Shown here in pieces: positions 48,273 through 55,044 of a DNA stretch of 64,000 nucleotides. The DNA is from Methylophilus sp. 5 (GTDB lineage: Bacteria > Pseudomonadota > Gammaproteobacteria > Burkholderiales > Methylophilaceae): positions 2,542,001 through 2,606,000 of the forward strand of contig NZ_KI911560.1 in NCBI RefSeq assembly GCF_000515275.1. Direction: 5' to 3'. The notes beneath the pieces were generated by a model. The model did not search any database. It had not been told where the DNA came from and saw nothing but the letters and a program-made list of their open reading frames with translations. The position numbers were made by a program, and so were the translations under genes. Each line of letters starts with the position of its first letter. Position 1 is the first letter of the stretch.

Positions 48273-50153
48273 ATGAAAATCCATTTACTACCTGACCAAC
48301 TGATTTCACAAATTGCTGCCGGAGAGGTGGTTGAGCGTCCGGCCTCCGCGCTTAAAGAGTTGCTGGAAAACAGCGTGGATGCAGGCAGTACACAGATTCA
48401 AGTGGCACTGCAACAAGGTGGTATGAAGTTGCTTAAGGTGAGTGATGATGGCCACGGCATTGCCAAAGACGACCTTGAGCTCGCACTGACGCGTCACGCC
48501 ACCAGTAAAATTCAAAGCCTGGAAGACCTGGAACAGGTCGGCAGTTTGGGTTTTAGAGGCGAGGCACTGGCCAGTATCGCCTCTATTTCACGCACAGTAC
48601 TCACCAGTCGCCAACAAGCAGCCAGCCATGCCTGGCAAATTGCTGCCGAAGGCACGCATGGGCAAGCAGTCAGCCCGGCTGCACTAGATGCCGGCACCAT
48701 TGTCGAGGTGCATGATTTGTACTTCAACACCCCGGCACGGCGCAAGTTTCTTAAAACTGAAAACACCGAGTTTGGACATTGTGAGGACGCGTTTACGCGG
48801 GTGGCCTTGTCGCGCCCGAATGTGGGATTTTTATTGCAGCATAATGGTAAAGCCATCTCGCGATTGGCCGCGAATACACCACAACAACGCATCACTGATG
48901 TCCTTGGCAGCGAGTTTGCTGCGCAAAGCGTTTGGCTGGAAGAGGATAGTGGTGGCTTGCGCCTGTGGGGCATGACAGCCTCGCCAACGTATCAACGCCA
49001 TAGTCGCGATAGCCAGTATGTATTTGTGAATGGCCGTTTTGTGCGCGATAAACTCATTGCCCACGCGATTAAACAAGCCTACCAAGATGTGTTGCACGGC
49101 GATAAACACCCGGCGTTTGTGCTGTTTTTAGAGCTTGATCCTTCTTTGGTCGATGTCAATGTTCACCCGGCCAAAACTGAGGTGCGTTTTCGTGAGTCGC
49201 AAGCGGTGCATCGCTTTATTTTCCATAGCCTGCACAAAGCACTAGGTAAAACCTCGGCCGAAATTCAGGCCAGCCAGCCTGTGCAAGCGCCGTTTAACCC
49301 GTTTAGGCCCGGAAATCTGCCTGCTTTCACTATGCCGCGCGAGCAGGTCGAAATGCCACTACAAAGCCGCCCGGCATTGGGTGGCAACTATCCACCTGCT
49401 GTGAGTAATGGCGCAGCGCTAGCGCAGCAATTTTACGGCCAGCTCTATGGTGATTTAAACCCTGCGGTGACGGCTGGGAGTATGGAAGAAGGTCATTCTG
49501 CAGCAAGCATGCTGGAAGTCACGCCTGTGATGGCAAGCGCTACCGCAGCAGAAGCACCGCAGCAATATCCCCTCGGTTTCGCGCTTGGTCAATTGCACGG
49601 TATTTATATCCTCGCTCAAAACACACAGGGCATGGTAGTGGTCGATATGCACGCTGCGCACGAGCGCATTATGTACGAGCGCCTGAAAAATGCCTTGAGC
49701 GACAAAGCCATTGCCACGCAGCCATTGCTGATCCCGATTAGCTTCTACGCCGAAAAAGTAGAGGTAGCTACGCTGCAAAGTTTAAATGGCAGCGATACCT
49801 TGCAACAGCTAGGTTTTGATCTGGCGACGTTGTCACCCACCACCATTGCGATTCGTGCCGTACCGACCATGCTGCAAGACGCCGATGCCGTCGCCTTAGC
49901 GCGCGCTGTGTTGCGTGATTTGCATGAGTATGGTGTGAGCCGTGTATTGCTTGAGCGCCAAAACGAAGTGTTAGGCACCATGGCCTGCCATGCAGCCGTC
50001 CGTGCGAATAGACAACTCACCATCACGGAAATGAATGCGCTGCTGAGGGATATGGAAGCCACCGAGCGCAGCGGGCAGTGTAACCACGGCAGACCGACCT
50101 GGTTTCAGGTGAGTTTGAATGACTTGGATAAGATGTTTATGCGTGGGCAGTAA
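48273..50153 (+). CDS. mutL: DNA mismatch repair protein MutL
   Basis: 626 residues. The GHKL ATPase domain (about 1-330) has LLENSVDAGST, DDGHGIAKDDL, GSLGFRGEALASI and a DVNVHPAKTEVRF segment. A variable linker (about 335-430) leads to the C-terminal dimerisation domain with DMHAAHERIMYE, close to the DQHA(X)2E(X)4E endonuclease motif (Gln replaced by Met). MutL may thus be the nicking type. miaA usually follows mutL in proteobacteria but is not found here. Confidence 0.96.
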   Translation: MKIHLLPDQLISQIAAGEVVERPASALKELLENSVDAGSTQIQVALQQGGMKLLKVSDDGHGIAKDDLELALTRHATSKIQSLEDLEQVGSLGFRGEALASIASISRTVLTSRQQAASHAWQIAAEGTHGQAVSPAALDAGTIVEVHDLYFNTPARRKFLKTENTEFGHCEDAFTRVALSRPNVGFLLQHNGKAISRLAANTPQQRITDVLGSEFAAQSVWLEEDSGGLRLWGMTASPTYQRHSRDSQYVFVNGRFVRDKLIAHAIKQAYQDVLHGDKHPAFVLFLELDPSLVDVNVHPAKTEVRFRESQAVHRFIFHSLHKALGKTSAEIQASQPVQAPFNPFRPGNLPAFTMPREQVEMPLQSRPALGGNYPPAVSNGAALAQQFYGQLYGDLNPAVTAGSMEEGHSAASMLEVTPVMASATAAEAPQQYPLGFALGQLHGIYILAQNTQGMVVVDMHAAHERIMYERLKNALSDKAIATQPLLIPISFYAEKVEVATLQSLNGSDTLQQLGFDLATLSPTTIAIRAVPTMLQDADAVALARAVLRDLHEYGVSRVLLERQNEVLGTMACHAAVRANRQLTITEMNALLRDMEATERSGQCNHGRPTWFQVSLNDLDKMFMRGQ

Positions 50154-50194: not shown

Positions 50195-50302
50195 ATGTTT
50201 AATCTAAAACACACAACAAACAGCCATCAATATATGGTTTGTGATTTAGGTGTGTTTGATGATGCAAAACCTATTTTTATAGGTGTAATATTAGGAAATT
50301 AG
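50195..50302 (+). CDS. Possible 35-residue ORF between mutL and the cassette array
   Basis: ATG 50195 to TAG 50302 encodes 35 residues (starts MFNLKHTTNS, ends IFIGVILGN). The region is clearly AT-richer than mutL. No ribosome binding site is evident. It could be a remnant of a cassette or a chance ORF. The rest of 50154-50417 holds nothing I recognise. Confidence 0.2.
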   Translation: MFNLKHTTNSHQYMVCDLGVFDDAKPIFIGVILGN

Positions 50303-50380
50303 CTGTTGATTTCATTGTGATAAATAAATCCATAAATTTTATAGCCCCCAGACTAAATAAAATATTATTGTCGTTTTCGG

Positions 50381-50399
50381 GGTCTAATTAACGTTAGCC
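50381..50399 (+). other. Degenerate recombination site at left end of cassette array
   Basis: TCTAATTAACGTTAGCC resembles the 3' part of the downstream attC sites (CTTAATTCAAACGTTAG). It sets the left border of cassette 1 at the GTTAGCC core (50393-50399). No matching R'' box and stem is visible upstream, so it is either an eroded attC or a remnant of an attI site. Confidence 0.4.
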
Positions 50400-50417
50400 A
50401 ATTAGAAGAGAGGATAT

Positions 50418-50783
50418 ATGGAAGCAGCGAATCATTATGGAAATATGCGCTTTGCAATGTTTACTGTATTCACCGCAATAGTTGGCGCTTTAATAGCTTT
50501 TCCATTTTCTTCTGAACATCAAACCCTTTTACAAAACTGTGGTAGTCGTTATTTGTATAGTTTGGTTAGCATTATTTTCTCTGTATTGTTCGGGCTGTCA
50601 CAATACAGAATTTCACAACTAGTTATTTTTTATCAGGAAGCTGCATTTGAAAGTGATTCTCTGAAAAAACCTGACGGTCATGGATGCTGGAAAAATATAG
50701 CTAATTTAACAATGCTATCACCATACATATTTTCCGCCCTGTTTTGGTTATTATTCGCGGTTGGTATTGTTAAAAATGGCTAA
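50418..50783 (+). CDS. Cassette 1: small membrane protein of unknown function
   Basis: 121 residues with three predicted membrane helices (about 12-29, 45-63 and 97-117) joined by short polar loops. AGAGGA lies 7 bp before the ATG, giving a good ribosome binding site. The TAA is provided by the R'' box of attC1. I do not recognise the family. Two or three helices with no catalytic motif would fit an effector or immunity-type membrane protein, but this is only a guess. Confidence 0.75.
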   Translation: MEAANHYGNMRFAMFTVFTAIVGALIAFPFSSEHQTLLQNCGSRYLYSLVSIIFSVLFGLSQYRISQLVIFYQEAAFESDSLKKPDGHGCWKNIANLTMLSPYIFSALFWLLFAVGIVKNG

Positions 50784-50838
50784 CCCGTCATTCAACTGGG
50801 ACGCGACTACGTCGCGCCCGTTAATTCGAACGTTGGCC
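50779..50838 (+). other. attC site 1
   Basis: 60 bp. R'' GGCTAAC and R' GTTGGCC bound a stem with GGGACGCGAC / GTCGCGCCC and a short apical loop. The left core is CGTCATTCAACT, a little diverged from the common form. Confidence 0.85.
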
Positions 50839-50844
50839 GTCAGT

Positions 50845-51570
50845 ATGACCACTCTTCGATTCGCCATTTTGGTAATTGCCACTTCCCTCGCTGCAAGTGG
50901 TGTTCGAGCGCAACCTCCCGGGAACGCATCGTCGTTTCAGATTGGTACTGCTGCCATCCTGGTCCCAACACCGCAAGGGTTTGTTGAAACCTCGCGCCGC
51001 TCCAAAGAACTTTGGGATAAAGCTTTGGCGTACAGAGGTGGTGCGGCCCGAATAATCGGTCACTTTGTTACAGAAAAAGACCTGGCTGCATTTGAGAAAG
51101 GTAAGGAAGTTACGTTCAAAGAGTATCTTCTTGTCCAGACACCGCGTAGTGCCGAGTCGCTTATAGCGACTCAAGCTCAGTTCGATAAACTCCGGTCAGG
51201 GACGGTTGCCCTTCAGGCTGACTTAGCTGAAAAGATTGAGCCGCGATTGTCAACTGAGCTTGAAAGGATTTCGAAAAACGTCTCTACTGCCAAGGGCGAG
51301 GATATCAAGTTTCGTCTTGGTGAAATTATTCCCGTTTCTGTCGACCGAAACGACTCGCGAGTGTTAATTCACACCGTACTTGCTCAAGTCAGCACTTCTC
51401 AAGAAAAATCAAAAACCAACCAAAACATGATCTCGACGACCGCATATTGTTTTGTGTCTGGCAAGGTGGTTGTTCTCATTGCATATAGACATTTCTTGAC
51501 CCCACAAGACATTCAATCGTCCCGTACTTTTGTGAACTCATGGGCCAACAGCGTTCTCTCCGCAAACTGA
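50845..51570 (+). CDS. Cassette 2: secreted protein of unknown function
   Basis: 241 residues from ATG 50845. The frame is open further upstream, but that stretch translates attC1. A clear signal peptide (LRFAILVIATSLAASGVRAQ) is followed by a mature domain of about 220 residues without transmembrane segments, with several charged helices (EKGKEVTFKEYLL; ADLAEKIEPRLSTELERI). GC content is higher than in cassettes 1 and 7, indicating a different source. No family is recognised. Confidence 0.75.
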   Translation: MTTLRFAILVIATSLAASGVRAQPPGNASSFQIGTAAILVPTPQGFVETSRRSKELWDKALAYRGGAARIIGHFVTEKDLAAFEKGKEVTFKEYLLVQTPRSAESLIATQAQFDKLRSGTVALQADLAEKIEPRLSTELERISKNVSTAKGEDIKFRLGEIIPVSVDRNDSRVLIHTVLAQVSTSQEKSKTNQNMISTTAYCFVSGKVVVLIAYRHFLTPQDIQSSRTFVNSWANSVLSAN

Positions 51571-51571
51571 C

Positions 51572-51646
51572 GGTCAACCCTTCGGTCAAGCGGGACCGTC
51601 TTCCAGCGTGCCGCCTCCAGACGGCCCCTTACCTCCAACGTTGGGC
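51572..51646 (+). other. attC site 2
   Basis: 75 bp from R'' GGTCAAC to R' GTTGGGC. The stem GGGACCGTC / GACGGCCCC encloses a larger apical loop (about 20 nt) than in the other sites. The core TCAAGCGGGAC is retained. Confidence 0.85.
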
Positions 51647-51649
51647 ATC

Positions 51650-52084
51650 GTGAAACAAATCGAGATATTTCCATTAATTGGCATTGGTGAAATAGAGCTC
51701 GGTTCTGCGCAGGCCGAAGTTCGTCGAATACTCGGGCCATGCAGGAGTTTTAAAAAGACACCTTTAGCTACCCATCCAACAGATTCGTGGTTCGATAATA
51801 AACTTCAGGTTTATTACACTGGTCAGGAGCCTATTGTCGAATACATAGAGTTATCTAATGGCCTAGAGGCAACTCTATTTGGCCATTCTGTGTTCTCAAC
51901 CAAGGCGAGCCAACTAATTTCCTTAATTGAGCAGCATGCCGCATTTGATAATACTGATCCAGAGCTGGGGTACAGTTACATATTTCGCTCACTTCAGTTG
52001 AGTTTTTGGCGTCCAGGGGTTAAGGGTTCAGAGGGAAGTTATTTTTCTACAGTGGGTGTAGGTATTCATGGCTATTTCTCTTAA
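51650..52084 (+). CDS. Cassette 3: hypothetical protein
   Basis: 144 residues from GTG 51650, 9 bp after the cassette edge; an upstream ATG at 51608 would translate attC2. The sequence IGEIELGSAQAEVRRILGPC at the start, YYTGQEPIVEYIELS and VGVGIHGYF at the end look like a compact alpha/beta domain. No signal peptide. It resembles hypothetical immunity-like proteins that I cannot name with confidence. Confidence 0.75.
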   Translation: MKQIEIFPLIGIGEIELGSAQAEVRRILGPCRSFKKTPLATHPTDSWFDNKLQVYYTGQEPIVEYIELSNGLEATLFGHSVFSTKASQLISLIEQHAAFDNTDPELGYSYIFRSLQLSFWRPGVKGSEGSYFSTVGVGIHGYFS

Positions 52085-52096
52085 ACCTGCAGCTAC

Positions 52097-52156
52097 GCCC
52101 AACCCATCATTCAAGCGGGACTGGCTAAAGCCAGCCCCTTAATTCAAACGTTAGAG
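52097..52156 (+). other. attC site 3
   Basis: 60 bp; R'' GCCCAAC fits RYYYAAC exactly, R' is GTTAGAG. The stem GGGACTGGC / GCCAGCCCC has apical TAAA. Nearly identical to sites 4 and 6. Confidence 0.92.
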
Positions 52157-52159
52157 GTA

Positions 52160-52423
52160 TTGTTGCTTTTTCTTATTTTCACCAGATCAGGGTACGATGA
52201 TTTGATAGCTCAAATCAAACCAAACCCAATATCTATTTGGCTAAATTATGGCGTTTTGACTCCGCTGGAAATCAATGAGCTTCGAAAATCCAGCTACAAT
52301 GTTACTGAGTTTTTAAAGCCCATAAACACCAATGACAATGCTGCTTTGGAGGCCGCAATTGAAACAGTGCAAGAGCATCATATCGGGCAAAATGTTTGGG
52401 TTGAGCATATTTCCAACCTCTAA
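52160..52423 (+). CDS. Cassette 4: small hypothetical protein
   Basis: 87 residues from TTG 52160 (or TTG 52163). AGAGG of the R' box (52153-52157) is the only ribosome binding site candidate, too close for 52160 and better for 52163. The TAA lies in the R'' box of attC4. Sequence features: a hydrophobic first strand (LLFLIFTRSGYDDL), ISIWLNYGVLT and ETVQEHHIGQNVWVEHI. It matches small single-domain proteins often found as cassettes (my recollection), with unknown function. Confidence 0.65.
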   Translation: MLLFLIFTRSGYDDLIAQIKPNPISIWLNYGVLTPLEINELRKSSYNVTEFLKPINTNDNAALEAAIETVQEHHIGQNVWVEHISNL

Positions 52424-52477
52424 CCCATCATTCAAGCGGGACTGGCTAAAGCCAGCCCCTTAATTCAAACGTTAGAC
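52418..52477 (+). other. attC site 4
   Basis: 60 bp from CTCTAAC (R'') to GTTAGAC (R'). Core CATCATTCAAGCGGGACTGG identical to site 3; the stem has TAAA loop. Confidence 0.92.
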
Positions 52478-52486
52478 GCTTACGCT

Positions 52487-52825
52487 ATGAAAACTCGCAA
52501 ACTCGTCGAAAGTATTCTTGAAAGTGCGTGCACAGACAATGTCAATTTCTACAGGCAAATGTTCGAAGAGCAAGATATTGACGCCGTGCAAGATGAAACG
52601 TGGCGAAAGTTCATACTGCTTGCCCGCTCGCTATCTAAAGAAGATAGAGAAACGCTACTTACGTTTGCTCGGCAAGTCGCCGTCGATTCAATATCCACCA
52701 TTTGCGGCGGTATCGACGGCGTTACCGAGCTTGGGGGAACGTTTATGTCTTTGTCACTCATAGACATCGAAGGGCAACAGCATGCTGGTTCACTTCAGGA
52801 TGAGTTGCTTTCCATTGCGAGTTAA
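52487..52825 (+). CDS. Cassette 5: hypothetical protein
   Basis: 112 residues from ATG 52487. Mainly helical: LVESILESACTDNVNFYRQM, LARSLSKEDRETLLTFARQV and DSISTICGGIDGVTELGG. No signal peptide or membrane segment. No family confidently recognised. The stop lies 39 bp before attC5. Confidence 0.7.
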   Translation: MKTRKLVESILESACTDNVNFYRQMFEEQDIDAVQDETWRKFILLARSLSKEDRETLLTFARQVAVDSISTICGGIDGVTELGGTFMSLSLIDIEGQQHAGSLQDELLSIAS

Positions 52826-52864
52826 GTCAATTCAAAGTTAAATGCATCATGAGGCCAATAAATC

Positions 52865-52975
52865 GTCTAACCCATCAGTCAAGCGGGACTGGCGAAAAGG
52901 ATCTTTTATGAAATGTTTATTAATAACGAGGGTTGAGCCAACACTTTCGCCAGCCCCTTACTTCAAACGTTAGGC
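52865..52975 (+). other. attC site 5 (long form)
   Basis: 111 bp. R'' GTCTAAC fits the consensus and R' is GTTAGGC. A longer stem, GGGACTGGCGAAA (52885-52897) with TTTCGCCAGCCCC (52945-52957), encloses a 47-nt apical region, so the variable terminal structure is much larger than in its neighbours. Confidence 0.88.
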
Positions 52976-52978
52976 AAT

Positions 52979-53428
52979 ATGTTCGATATTTTTATTGAGA
53001 GCCAGTCAAAGATTGAAGCGCTTACCGAGTTTTATCAGGGAAAGTTAATTTTGCATCAAGAGACTGAGTATTTAGCTTGCTATGCCAAGTACTGGAAATC
53101 AATCGAATATAAGCGGCAATGGTCTAGGGCCGCAAAACATATCCTTCATCGCTCTAATAAAACCGCTGGATTTGTAACTGCTGCAAATATTAAAAGAAAT
53201 CCCAAAAATATTAGTTGGTGGATAGCTTTCAAAAATGGAAATCAAATAACTTTCCGTGAGCAACTGCTATCCTATAACTCTAGAAAGCGTTGGTTAAAAT
53301 GTCCCAATGCAGAGCATGCTCACAAGAGTGTTCCTAAAAGGCTTTTTCTCACCACTAATTACGTTAGTGAATGGAAAGTAAGTGTCGGAGCTATGAGAAA
53401 GTTTTTATCTAGGCGTAATTTTGCCTAA
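52979..53428 (+). CDS. Cassette 6: basic hypothetical protein
   Basis: 149 residues from ATG 52979, 9 bp after the cassette edge; TTAGG from the R' box may serve as ribosome binding site. The stop TAA is in the R'' box of attC6. The protein is rich in Lys, Arg and aromatic residues (YKRQWSRAAKHILHR; SWWIAFKNGN; SRKRWLKCP), consistent with nucleic-acid contact. No family recognised. Confidence 0.7.
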   Translation: MFDIFIESQSKIEALTEFYQGKLILHQETEYLACYAKYWKSIEYKRQWSRAAKHILHRSNKTAGFVTAANIKRNPKNISWWIAFKNGNQITFREQLLSYNSRKRWLKCPNAEHAHKSVPKRLFLTTNYVSEWKVSVGAMRKFLSRRNFA

Positions 53429-53482
53429 CCCGTCATTCAAGCGGGACTGGCTAAAGCCAGCCGCTTAATTCAAACGTTAGAA
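53423..53482 (+). other. attC site 6
   Basis: 60 bp; R'' GCCTAAC fits the consensus exactly and R' is GTTAGAA. Same stem with TAAA loop as sites 3 and 4, with one change in the right arm (GCCGC for GCCCC). Confidence 0.92.
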
Positions 53483-53486
53483 CTAT

Positions 53487-54062
53487 ATGAACGAACTATT
53501 GATAAAGCAAAATAAAGGCACCTTGAAAACATTACCTGTCATGTTTTTTTTGGTTTTTGCTTTTTTCACTATTTCAAGTTATTTAGGTTCTGGATTTTCT
53601 GCTCAAACTCAAACAATGCTAGGGTTTACAATATTTATACAGTTTTTTGCATTATGGTATTTACATATACACTCTAAACGGCAAGTTCTAATCAACAAAT
53701 CAACCGAGAAAATCGAAATTACTGAGTTTTCTATTTTTGGTACTCAAAAATACAAAAACTACCCATTAGGCAACTTCAGCTCAATCCAGTCATACATCAC
53801 GCATGGTAAAGGTGCAAGAAACATCGTTGAGCTTGTTACTTCAGATGGTAATCGAGGTCTGTTTTTATCCAGTTTTTTACCATGTGGTGGTAAAAAATTC
53901 TGGTCACTTGAAATTGAAACTGAAAATCCAGAAGCTGCTCTTTTGGCATCACAAGTGGCAGCATTTCTATCAATAAAAAACATAGGCTTTATTGGGCATA
54001 AGTTTGCTACAAACCAAGTAGGTATTGAAAATAATGCTAAATTTATCAGCAACATGTTCTAA
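53487..54062 (+). CDS. Cassette 7: two-helix membrane protein with PH-like cytoplasmic domain
   Basis: 191 residues from ATG 53487. Two membrane helices (about 16-34 and 43-61) are followed by a beta-rich domain (RQVLINKSTEKIEITEFSIF..., IVELVTSDGNRGLFLSSFLP) that resembles bacterial PH-like (bPH) domains, and a C-terminal helix. Very AT-rich coding. The stop TAA is part of the R'' box of attC7. Function unknown. Confidence 0.7.
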   Translation: MNELLIKQNKGTLKTLPVMFFLVFAFFTISSYLGSGFSAQTQTMLGFTIFIQFFALWYLHIHSKRQVLINKSTEKIEITEFSIFGTQKYKNYPLGNFSSIQSYITHGKGARNIVELVTSDGNRGLFLSSFLPCGGKKFWSLEIETENPEAALLASQVAAFLSIKNIGFIGHKFATNQVGIENNAKFISNMF

Positions 54063-54116
54063 CCCATCCATCAAGCGGGACGCGCTAAAGCGCGCCCCTT
54101 ATGTCAAACGTTAGAG
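54057..54116 (+). other. attC site 7
   Basis: 60 bp; R'' TTCTAAC and R' GTTAGAG. The stem uses GGGACGCGC / GCGCGCCCC with TAAA loop. Left core is CATCCATCAAGCGGGAC, right core CTTATGTCAAACG. This is the last recognisable site of the array. Confidence 0.9.
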
Positions 54117-54121
54117 CGCGC

Positions 54122-54379
54122 ATGACTGAAGAGTTTAGAATTAGAAAATTTGCCAATAAATTTAATGCGCAAATCAAAACTTCAGCACTGGTGAGTGGTG
54201 GGGCTCTAGATGCAGTCGAAAGGTACAGAAAAAAGCACGGCGGCATATGGGTTGGAGGGGTTGTAGAGCTTACTCATAAAGGTGTATTTTTCAGCCAGCT
54301 TAGTAGGGCGGACTCGTTTACAGTCCGCCGTATTTCTTTTGTAAAGCCCAGAGTATTTTTCGTAATATGCTTTGTCTAG
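54122..54379 (+). pseudogene. Truncated eighth cassette gene
   Basis: ATG 54122, 11 bp after attC7, begins an ORF whose first 55-60 residues look like a real cassette protein (TEEFRIRKFANKFNAQIKTS; GGIWVGGVVELTHKGVFF, a PH/GRAM-like start). After about residue 60 the frame runs into a hairpin and a hydrophobic nonsense-like tail (RISFVKPRVFFVICFV). No attC follows. I read it as a cassette cut by deletion, with the array's right end lost. Confidence 0.6.
54307..54329. repeat. Hairpin repeat, left of toxin-antitoxin pair
   Basis: Perfect 8-bp stem GGCGGACT / AGTCCGCC with a 7-nt loop (CGTTTAC), followed by TATTTCTTTT. It shares GACTCGTT...AGTCCGC with the hairpin at 55051-55076 on the other side of the toxin-antitoxin operon. 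Confidence 0.7.
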
Positions 54380-54454: not shown

Positions 54455-54739
54455 ATGACTACAACGACTATTCGACTATCCGCTGAGCTCAAGGAGCGCG
54501 TTGCCGAAGCTGCAAAGCGAGCAGGTACGACGCCCCACAGTTTTATTTTGGAGGCTATTGCTGACAAGACCGCGCAAGAAGAGTTACGTGCTGGTTTTGA
54601 GGCGCAAGCTGAGGCACGTTACGCTAACTTGATGGCTTCTGGCGAATCCATTGCCTGGGACGAGATGAAAAGTTATCTCGAATTGAAGCTCTCAAACCCT
54701 GAAGCACCTTTGCCAAAAAGTCGCAAACTCGCGCCTTAA
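54455..54739 (+). CDS. Ribbon-helix-helix antitoxin (CopG/ParD type)
   Basis: 94 residues. The N-terminal TTTIRLSAELKERVAEAAKR plus AGTTPHSFILEAIADK is a ribbon-helix-helix DNA-binding domain; the C-terminal helix should bind and neutralise the toxin. The toxin gene starts 2 bp after the stop. The operator upstream supports autoregulation. Confidence 0.88.
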   Translation: MTTTTIRLSAELKERVAEAAKRAGTTPHSFILEAIADKTAQEELRAGFEAQAEARYANLMASGESIAWDEMKSYLELKLSNPEAPLPKSRKLAP

Positions 54740-54741
54740 TT

Positions 54742-55044
54742 ATGTCAGCGATTGAACTTGCGCCTGAAATTGCAGAGGATTTTCAGCGTATTCTGGAGCA
54801 TCTGATCGCATTTGAAGTGATCAATCCGCAGCAAAGAGTCACTGAGATTATCGAAGCCATAGGCATTCTGGCAAACAATCCGCTGATTGGTCGTCCATCT
54901 ACTTCCGACCTTAGAGAGTTGGTGATTGGTAAAAGGTCTCATGGATATATTGCGCTATACAAATATGCGCCTGCGATTGATACGGTGTTTGTGTTGGCAA
55001 TTAGAAGCCAACGCGAAGCGGGGTATGTGGATAGAGGTTGTTAG
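54742..55044 (+). CDS. RelE/ParE-family toxin
   Basis: 100 residues. LAPEIAEDFQRILEHLI at the start, NNPLIGRPSTSDLRELVIG in the middle and FVLAIRSQREAGY at the end are ParE/RelE superfamily features. ParE-type toxins poison gyrase and RelE-type cut mRNA; which applies here cannot be told. A hairpin follows the stop. Confidence 0.85.
   Translation: MSAIELAPEIAEDFQRILEHLIAFEVINPQQRVTEIIEAIGILANNPLIGRPSTSDLRELVIGKRSHGYIALYKYAPAIDTVFVLAIRSQREAGYVDRGC

Follow-up and report, generated by a model that had tools for sequence, protein, structure and literature searches.

An attI-led gene-cassette array beside mutL in Methylophilus sp. 5, a probable secondary integron platform

How does an array of gene cassettes come to lie beside mutL in Methylophilus sp. 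5, and is it a stranded cluster or a place that could still be filled? The stretch analysed here (the window) is 64,000 bp long and covers bases 2542001-2606000 of a 3.03-Mb single-contig genome (G000 in the genome set used below). A preliminary description, made from the letters alone, had placed in it a cluster of attC sites lacking an integron integrase (CALIN), with seven cassettes. We found that the array is led by an attI site of its own. It is probably a secondary integron platform, the remnant of an integron that would have lost its integrase gene (intI), kept its attI and been fed in trans.

The attI site and the array behind it

As shown in Table 1, seven attC sites, all on the + strand and spanning 50778-54118, separate seven cassettes of 321 to 808 bp, which lie in one orientation with their borders at G|TT crossover points. 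The numbers and the orientation given in the preliminary description were borne out by these borders and by a scan with R1, a covariance model trained on the seven sites, and its start, 50394, directly follows the crossover. Run over the whole genome, as that description had proposed, R1 gave 17 matches at E ≤ 1, the seven of the window and 10 elsewhere (150 of the 317 first-look candidates were scored); the window scores of 67.8-86.5 bits are circular because R1 was trained on the same sites. Folded as bottom-strand DNA, the seven sites did better than shuffled sequences only to a moderate degree, with 1, 3, 5, 6, 13, 15 and 49 of 200 shuffles equally good. The G+C content is 35-50% in the cassettes and 50.3% in the window.

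Table 1. Features of the array and its left neighbour, in window coordinates (ORF, open reading frame; aa, amino acids).
Feature	Position	Strand	Description
mutL, fixed left neighbour outside the array	48273-50153	+	626-aa ORF, MutL-like by sequence and presumed to be mutL
Box 1	50248-50257	+	AGGTG repeat, from the alignment of intI-adjacent (cis) and orphan attI regions
Box 2	50281-50290	+	second AGGTG repeat, 33 bp from box 1, same alignment
Orphan attI	50304-50398	+	R2 78.8 bits, E 1.4e-22
Cassette 1	50394-50832	+	ORF 50418-50783, 121 aa, hydrophobic, no family
attC1	50778-50840	+	R1 67.8 bits
Cassette 2	50833-51640	+	ORF 50845-51570, 241 aa, no family
attC2	51572-51648	+	R1 68 bits
Cassette 3	51641-52150	+	ORF to 52084, GTG at 51650 (by eye), no family
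attC3	52097-52158	+	R1 84.1 bits
Cassette 4	52151-52471	+	ORF 52160-52423, 87 aa
attC4	52418-52479	+	R1 86.5 bits
Cassette 5	52472-52969	+	ORF 52487-52825, 112 aa, no confident family
attC5, long variant	52865-52977	+	R1 74.7 bits
Cassette 6	52970-53476	+	ORF 52979-53428, 149 aa, CdiI_N-like immunity protein
attC6	53423-53484	+	R1 81.9 bits
Cassette 7	53477-54110	+	ORF 53487-54062, 191 aa, no family above cut-off
attC7	54057-54118	+	R1 83 bits
Cassette 8 remnant	54111-54294	+	truncated, no attC of its own here

The orphan attI was recognised with a second model, R2, built from 12 intI-adjacent attI sites of the genus, the window copy being left out. Its crossover lies between 50393 and 50394, where cassette 1 is joined at a G|TT core, and R2 gave no match at E ≤ 1 in 260 kb of control DNA of the same genome. 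Of the two AGGTG boxes, box 1 falls within the first codons of intI in the primary integron of this genome, and it is kept in orphan attI sites although no intI frame constrains it there. Among the 14 of 17 orphan matches of the genus that were aligned, box 1 reads AGGTG in 12 and box 2 reads GGTG in 11, by eye. The integrase IntI1 binds a pair of direct repeats that lie upstream in class 1 attI (PMC12901181; this and the other papers are cited for the parts of their text that were consulted), and by analogy the AGGTG boxes may act in the same way.

An ordinary CALIN could also have arisen by cassette insertion at a non-classical attG site beside mutL. CALINs are common at several chromosomal loci, for example in Xanthomonas (PMC12444791), and attG insertion has been published (Loot et al. 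2024, as cited in PMC12901181). Here, however, a 95-bp attI (E 1.4e-22) stands exactly at the left edge, and attG sites are not copies of attI; a chance match of R2 is unlikely, with none in the control DNA. We find attG insertion scarcely credible and rejected it. The name CALIN fits in that seven attC sites cluster without an adjoining intI, and misleads in that they have an attI of their own; the array is therefore an intI-less, attI-led platform instead of stranded attC sites. Measured against a complete integron, it has the attI at its start and no intI beside it.

The integrase gene lies outside the window, as expected from the preliminary description, which had seen none in the 64 kb and had advised a search elsewhere. 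TIGR02249 had five matches in the genome, and the sole one above cut-off (471.9 bits) is an intI gene about 62 kb away. It starts at 2530669, at a distance of 11.3 kb from the left edge of the window and 61.7 kb from the crossover of the window array, and encodes a 327-residue integrase (IntI) with the catalytic sextet RKHRHY complete; the other four matches (41-78 bits) look like other tyrosine recombinases. Beside it is a primary array of 10 attC sites (2531164-2536630), whose end is 55.7 kb from the orphan attI. The 327-residue IntI found no match in the 1.5 kb upstream of the window array, where no trace of intI is left except perhaps a short stretch at box 1. This gene, the attI before 50394 and the truncated cassette 8 after 54110 had been absent from the preliminary description.

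Between the orphan and the intI-adjacent attI of G000, 88 of 92 core-proximal bases are identical, and 37 of 72 in the 72 bp upstream, mainly at the two AGGTG boxes. The core-proximal identity would suit a recent event in which the segment with the primary attI and array was duplicated to mutL, as would cassette 4, which is 99.6% identical over 279 bp to the last cassette of the primary array (G000cis_c10). In an all-against-all comparison, however, just cassette 4 among the seven of the window has a counterpart in the primary array, and the upstream 72 bp are half identical; we regard such a duplication as very improbable.

Both arrays of G000 run with replication towards dif, with dnaA at 1262791, a dif-like site at 2742338, a skew change near 2.73 Mb and the window array on the + strand at 2592 kb, and the bottom strand of the attC sites is on the leading-strand template. 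This orientation is reported to be the one preferred for sedentary chromosomal integrons (PMC11023631). The replication ends were located in G000 alone.

Arrays without an adjacent integrase gene in the genus

Is the window array a singular case? We searched 22 genomes of the genus, all of which have a mutL orthologue, with R2 at a threshold of E ≤ 0.05. There were 31 matches, 14 beside intI and 17 elsewhere. Twelve of the latter lead an attC array and five do not (the fabI sites of G016 and G009, G001 C25, G020 C32:75741 and a site in G018). A further 15 arrays that have no intact intI next to them gave no R2 match at this threshold, and every one of them begins with a pre-cassette stretch common to other arrays or to an intI-adjacent attI of another type: type B in five arrays (like the attI of G019, G020 and G013), type C in four (short, weak similarity), type D in four and type E in two. 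Four additional testable arrays fit these types (L304, type C; L305, type B; L306, type E; L308, type D). Altogether, all 31 testable arrays examined that lack an intact intI alongside have an attI-like start, 12 by model and 19 by similarity. As a control for similarity, one of 500 random 1.5-kb segments matched (E 5e-6, in G006 sequence outside the core).

The count of 31 is based on R1 attC matches, which, among those listed, come from at least 21 of the 22 genomes. It takes orthologous loci of different species apart and represents about 21 loci; it does not include the single attC sites of G004 (1834202, 568293), G010 (C1:848295) and G016 (724721) or the array G012 C110, which starts at a contig end. 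In G014C26 there is no GTT core. Fragments of intI adjoin the orphan attI sites G005o1 and G009o1 and the arrays G002C7end, G017C11 and G006C10. At family level, R2 with stricter filters matched 41 of 150 genomes in eight of 24 genera, with multiple matches in several. Twelve genomes, with multiple matches or otherwise selected, were inspected, and in six of them there was no hit to intI at 1e-30.

A platform lies behind fabI in six of the 22 genomes. That of G007, and a relic behind fabI in G000, are on the strand opposite to the intI-adjacent array. The relic (G000:C1:2661679, L264) consists, by eye, of an AGGTG box and AT-rich sequence with no core and is perhaps a dead platform. In attI sites of type D (L222, L223, L227, L229 and L308), a palindrome (around TGCGGACGCGTGCGTCCGCA in L222) stands directly before the crossover, a layout of which we know no description.

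Like the CALINs of IntegronFinder 2.0, the window array is an attC cluster without an adjoining intI; it differs in having its own attI. The consulted text of that paper calls attI poorly described and undetected outside class 1, so an attI-led feature goes unreported by the program; the survey counted 2961 CALINs and proposed them to be degraded integrons (PMC9024848). With the sedentary chromosomal integron of Vibrio cholerae (PMC11023631), the genome shares the attC orientation relative to replication, the cassette structure and the presence of intI and attI, but that integron has a single intI-attI platform, whereas here more than one attI-led array, 55.7 kb apart, lies on one chromosome. 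The CALINs at conserved positions in Xanthomonas (PMC12444791) likewise keep a fixed chromosomal neighbour away from intI, and their cassettes are said to be mobilisable in trans; the consulted part of that paper describes them without examination of attI. In Delta-attI-type cassettes of mobile integrons (PMC12901181) an attI-like site also lies away from intI, but those have a partial attI at the end of a single cassette, whereas in the window a whole attI leads an array. No description of attI-led CALINs or of orphan attI was found among the open-access papers that our searches listed, subscription papers being outside the search.

Cassette traffic and a possible supply in trans

Do cassettes pass between such platforms and the arrays beside intI? 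We compared 213 segments all against all and set the identity of shared cassettes against the mutL identity of the genome pair. Over 614 bp, cassette 7 of the window and cassette 5 in the array beside the intI of G015 are 95.1% identical (mutL 86.4%). Cassette 3 of the G005 fabI array is 94.4% identical to cassette 2 of the primary array of G000 (mutL 79.0%), cassette 1 of G008 array Y is 89.3% identical to cassette 1 of the intI-adjacent array of G007 (68.7%; both are first after attI), and cassette 7 of the G003 array at 1173 kb has a 98.7% match in G014 (mutL 79.1%). The smallest excess is that of cassette 8, 81.5% identical over 184 bp to cassette 2 of the G006 mutL array (mutL 79.0%), or 83.5% over 236 bp with attC7; the relative in G006 is longer and has an attC. 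All shared cassettes with a computed mutL figure exceed the mutL identity, which indicates that cassettes pass between arrays with and arrays without an adjoining intI, through IntI or in some other way. Given their high identity, at least cassettes 4 and 7 of the window arrived lately.

The locus itself is variable. From mutL to the next conserved gene there are 4.9 kb here, about 456 bp in G015 and about 58 bp in G004. Ordinary genes in conserved order, which the preliminary description had named as the alternative to cassettes, were not found: the cassettes at mutL differ between relatives, except the last, truncated one, which is common to G006. This old shared cassette is distal, and the arrays of G000 and G006 diverge towards the attI. 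attC7 (compared with L202) looks like a hybrid, its left half matching the G015 copy of cassette 7 and its right half being nearer the attC before cassette 8 in G006.

In the reading that we prefer, the platform would derive from a complete integron that had lost intI and kept attI. Cassettes released from other arrays would have been inserted at the orphan attI, or at the attC sites of the array, by IntI that the intact gene, about 62 kb distant, supplies in trans. Action of IntI in trans on the orphan attI is most likely because of the attI with its boxes, the genus pattern, the traffic, the polarity of the array and the intI fragments at platforms of five relatives.

Several points weigh against this reading. 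Excision and insertion of cassettes at the orphan attI are deduced from sequence, and the high-identity cassettes may also have come by homologous recombination or with transferred DNA segments. The intI-less arrays of G003 and G005 hold the 98.7% and 94.4% cassettes, and the sole intI found in these genomes lacks catalytic residues; sharing can therefore be explained without a functional IntI in the same cell. The closest MutL relatives (G014, G015, G007 and G016) have no platform at mutL, and several losses or a lateral move are therefore needed. The mutL-locus attI of G006 had no R2 match even at E ≤ 1 and resembles type C over 51-60 bp (E about 1e-6 to 1e-7, weakest 4e-5), which hints that it may be of another type. 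The upstream parts of the two G000 attI sites are too different for a simple recent duplication. A sigma-70 scan of the attI region for the cassette promoter Pc gave 4 hits against 3.8 in shuffles, no more than chance, and lends no support to a cassette promoter in the orphan attI.

Part of this would also be expected if the array and attI were the leftovers of a lost integron that no longer gains cassettes, the recent ones having come by homologous recombination or lateral transfer. The array decays distally, as the truncated cassette 8 illustrates, high-identity cassettes occur in intI-less arrays where intI looks catalytically impaired, and the contrast between core-proximal and upstream attI identity fits gene conversion. 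However, the ORF of cassette 7 and the left half of attC7 are common to an intI-adjacent array of G015 at a different locus, so allelic recombination at mutL is no explanation, and the core, boxes and crossover of the attI are intact. We therefore think it unlikely, though worth serious weight, that the array is such a fossil.

Eight of the 20 IntI proteins of the genus (loci L148-L167), those of G002, G003, G004, G005, G010, G015, G016 and G017 and not that of G000, have the catalytic Lys replaced by Gln, Asn, Glu or His and the first His by Asn or Gln, in frames open without stops; in G004 the first Arg is also replaced by Lys. In IntI relatives from outside the genus, RKHRHY was found in 79 of 79 scorable proteins, and K171, H277 and R280 are conserved in all 182 Shewanella IntI (PMC9229058). 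The variants look to be under selection, the ratio of nonsynonymous to synonymous substitution rates (dN/dS) being 0.04-0.16 where computable (0.085 for G002/G003), with dS mostly saturated. Seven of them form one clade (100/95), and the tree leaves the placement of G017 open. At the intI loci of G010, G004, G016 and G017 (L300-L303 in that order), all of the variant type, the intI frame is intact and the adjoining attI core degenerate, by eye; no attC match was found in 16-17 kb at intI, and attC sites lie elsewhere in these genomes.

Tentatively, we suggest that one intI may serve several attI platforms, with the orphan attI sites under selection, and that in some members of the genus the protein of the intI locus, lacking the Lys and His, may be kept by purifying selection, possibly to bind DNA at att sites. 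Should CALINs mostly retain their own attI, as the arrays of this genus do, they would be sites still open to filling by a distant IntI, and the integron of a genome would be a network and not one locus.

Cassette products and neighbouring features

The preliminary description could name none of the products, and for seven of eight (the remnant counted) this stood: cassettes 1-5, 7 and 8 have no Pfam or NCBIfam family above cut-off. It did not hold for cassette 6, whose protein matches PF18228 (CdiI_N) at 45.9 bits (cut-off 25, E 5.7e-12) and, being CdiI_N-like, is likely to be the product of an orphan immunity gene against a contact-dependent toxin. Cassettes 2 and 6 have no solved relative in the PDB by sequence. 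The hope of an undescribed defence system found no support in PADLOC, which gave no confident match; the best, of cassette 5 to PDC-M60A (E 0.0059, 12.4 bits), was taken as chance. In Rfam at gathering scores, the window yielded signal recognition particle (SRP) RNA alone and no other family.

Directly after the array, at 54455-55044, there is a toxin-antitoxin-like pair of a ribbon-helix-helix (RHH)/RelB-like protein and a ParE family protein (PF05016, E 1.7e-9), with no attC behind it. In the primary array, an IS110-like element (L006:16946-18530), with its transposase gene at L006:17329-18429, interrupts the last attC. The IS1111-attC group is known for insertion in attC sites.

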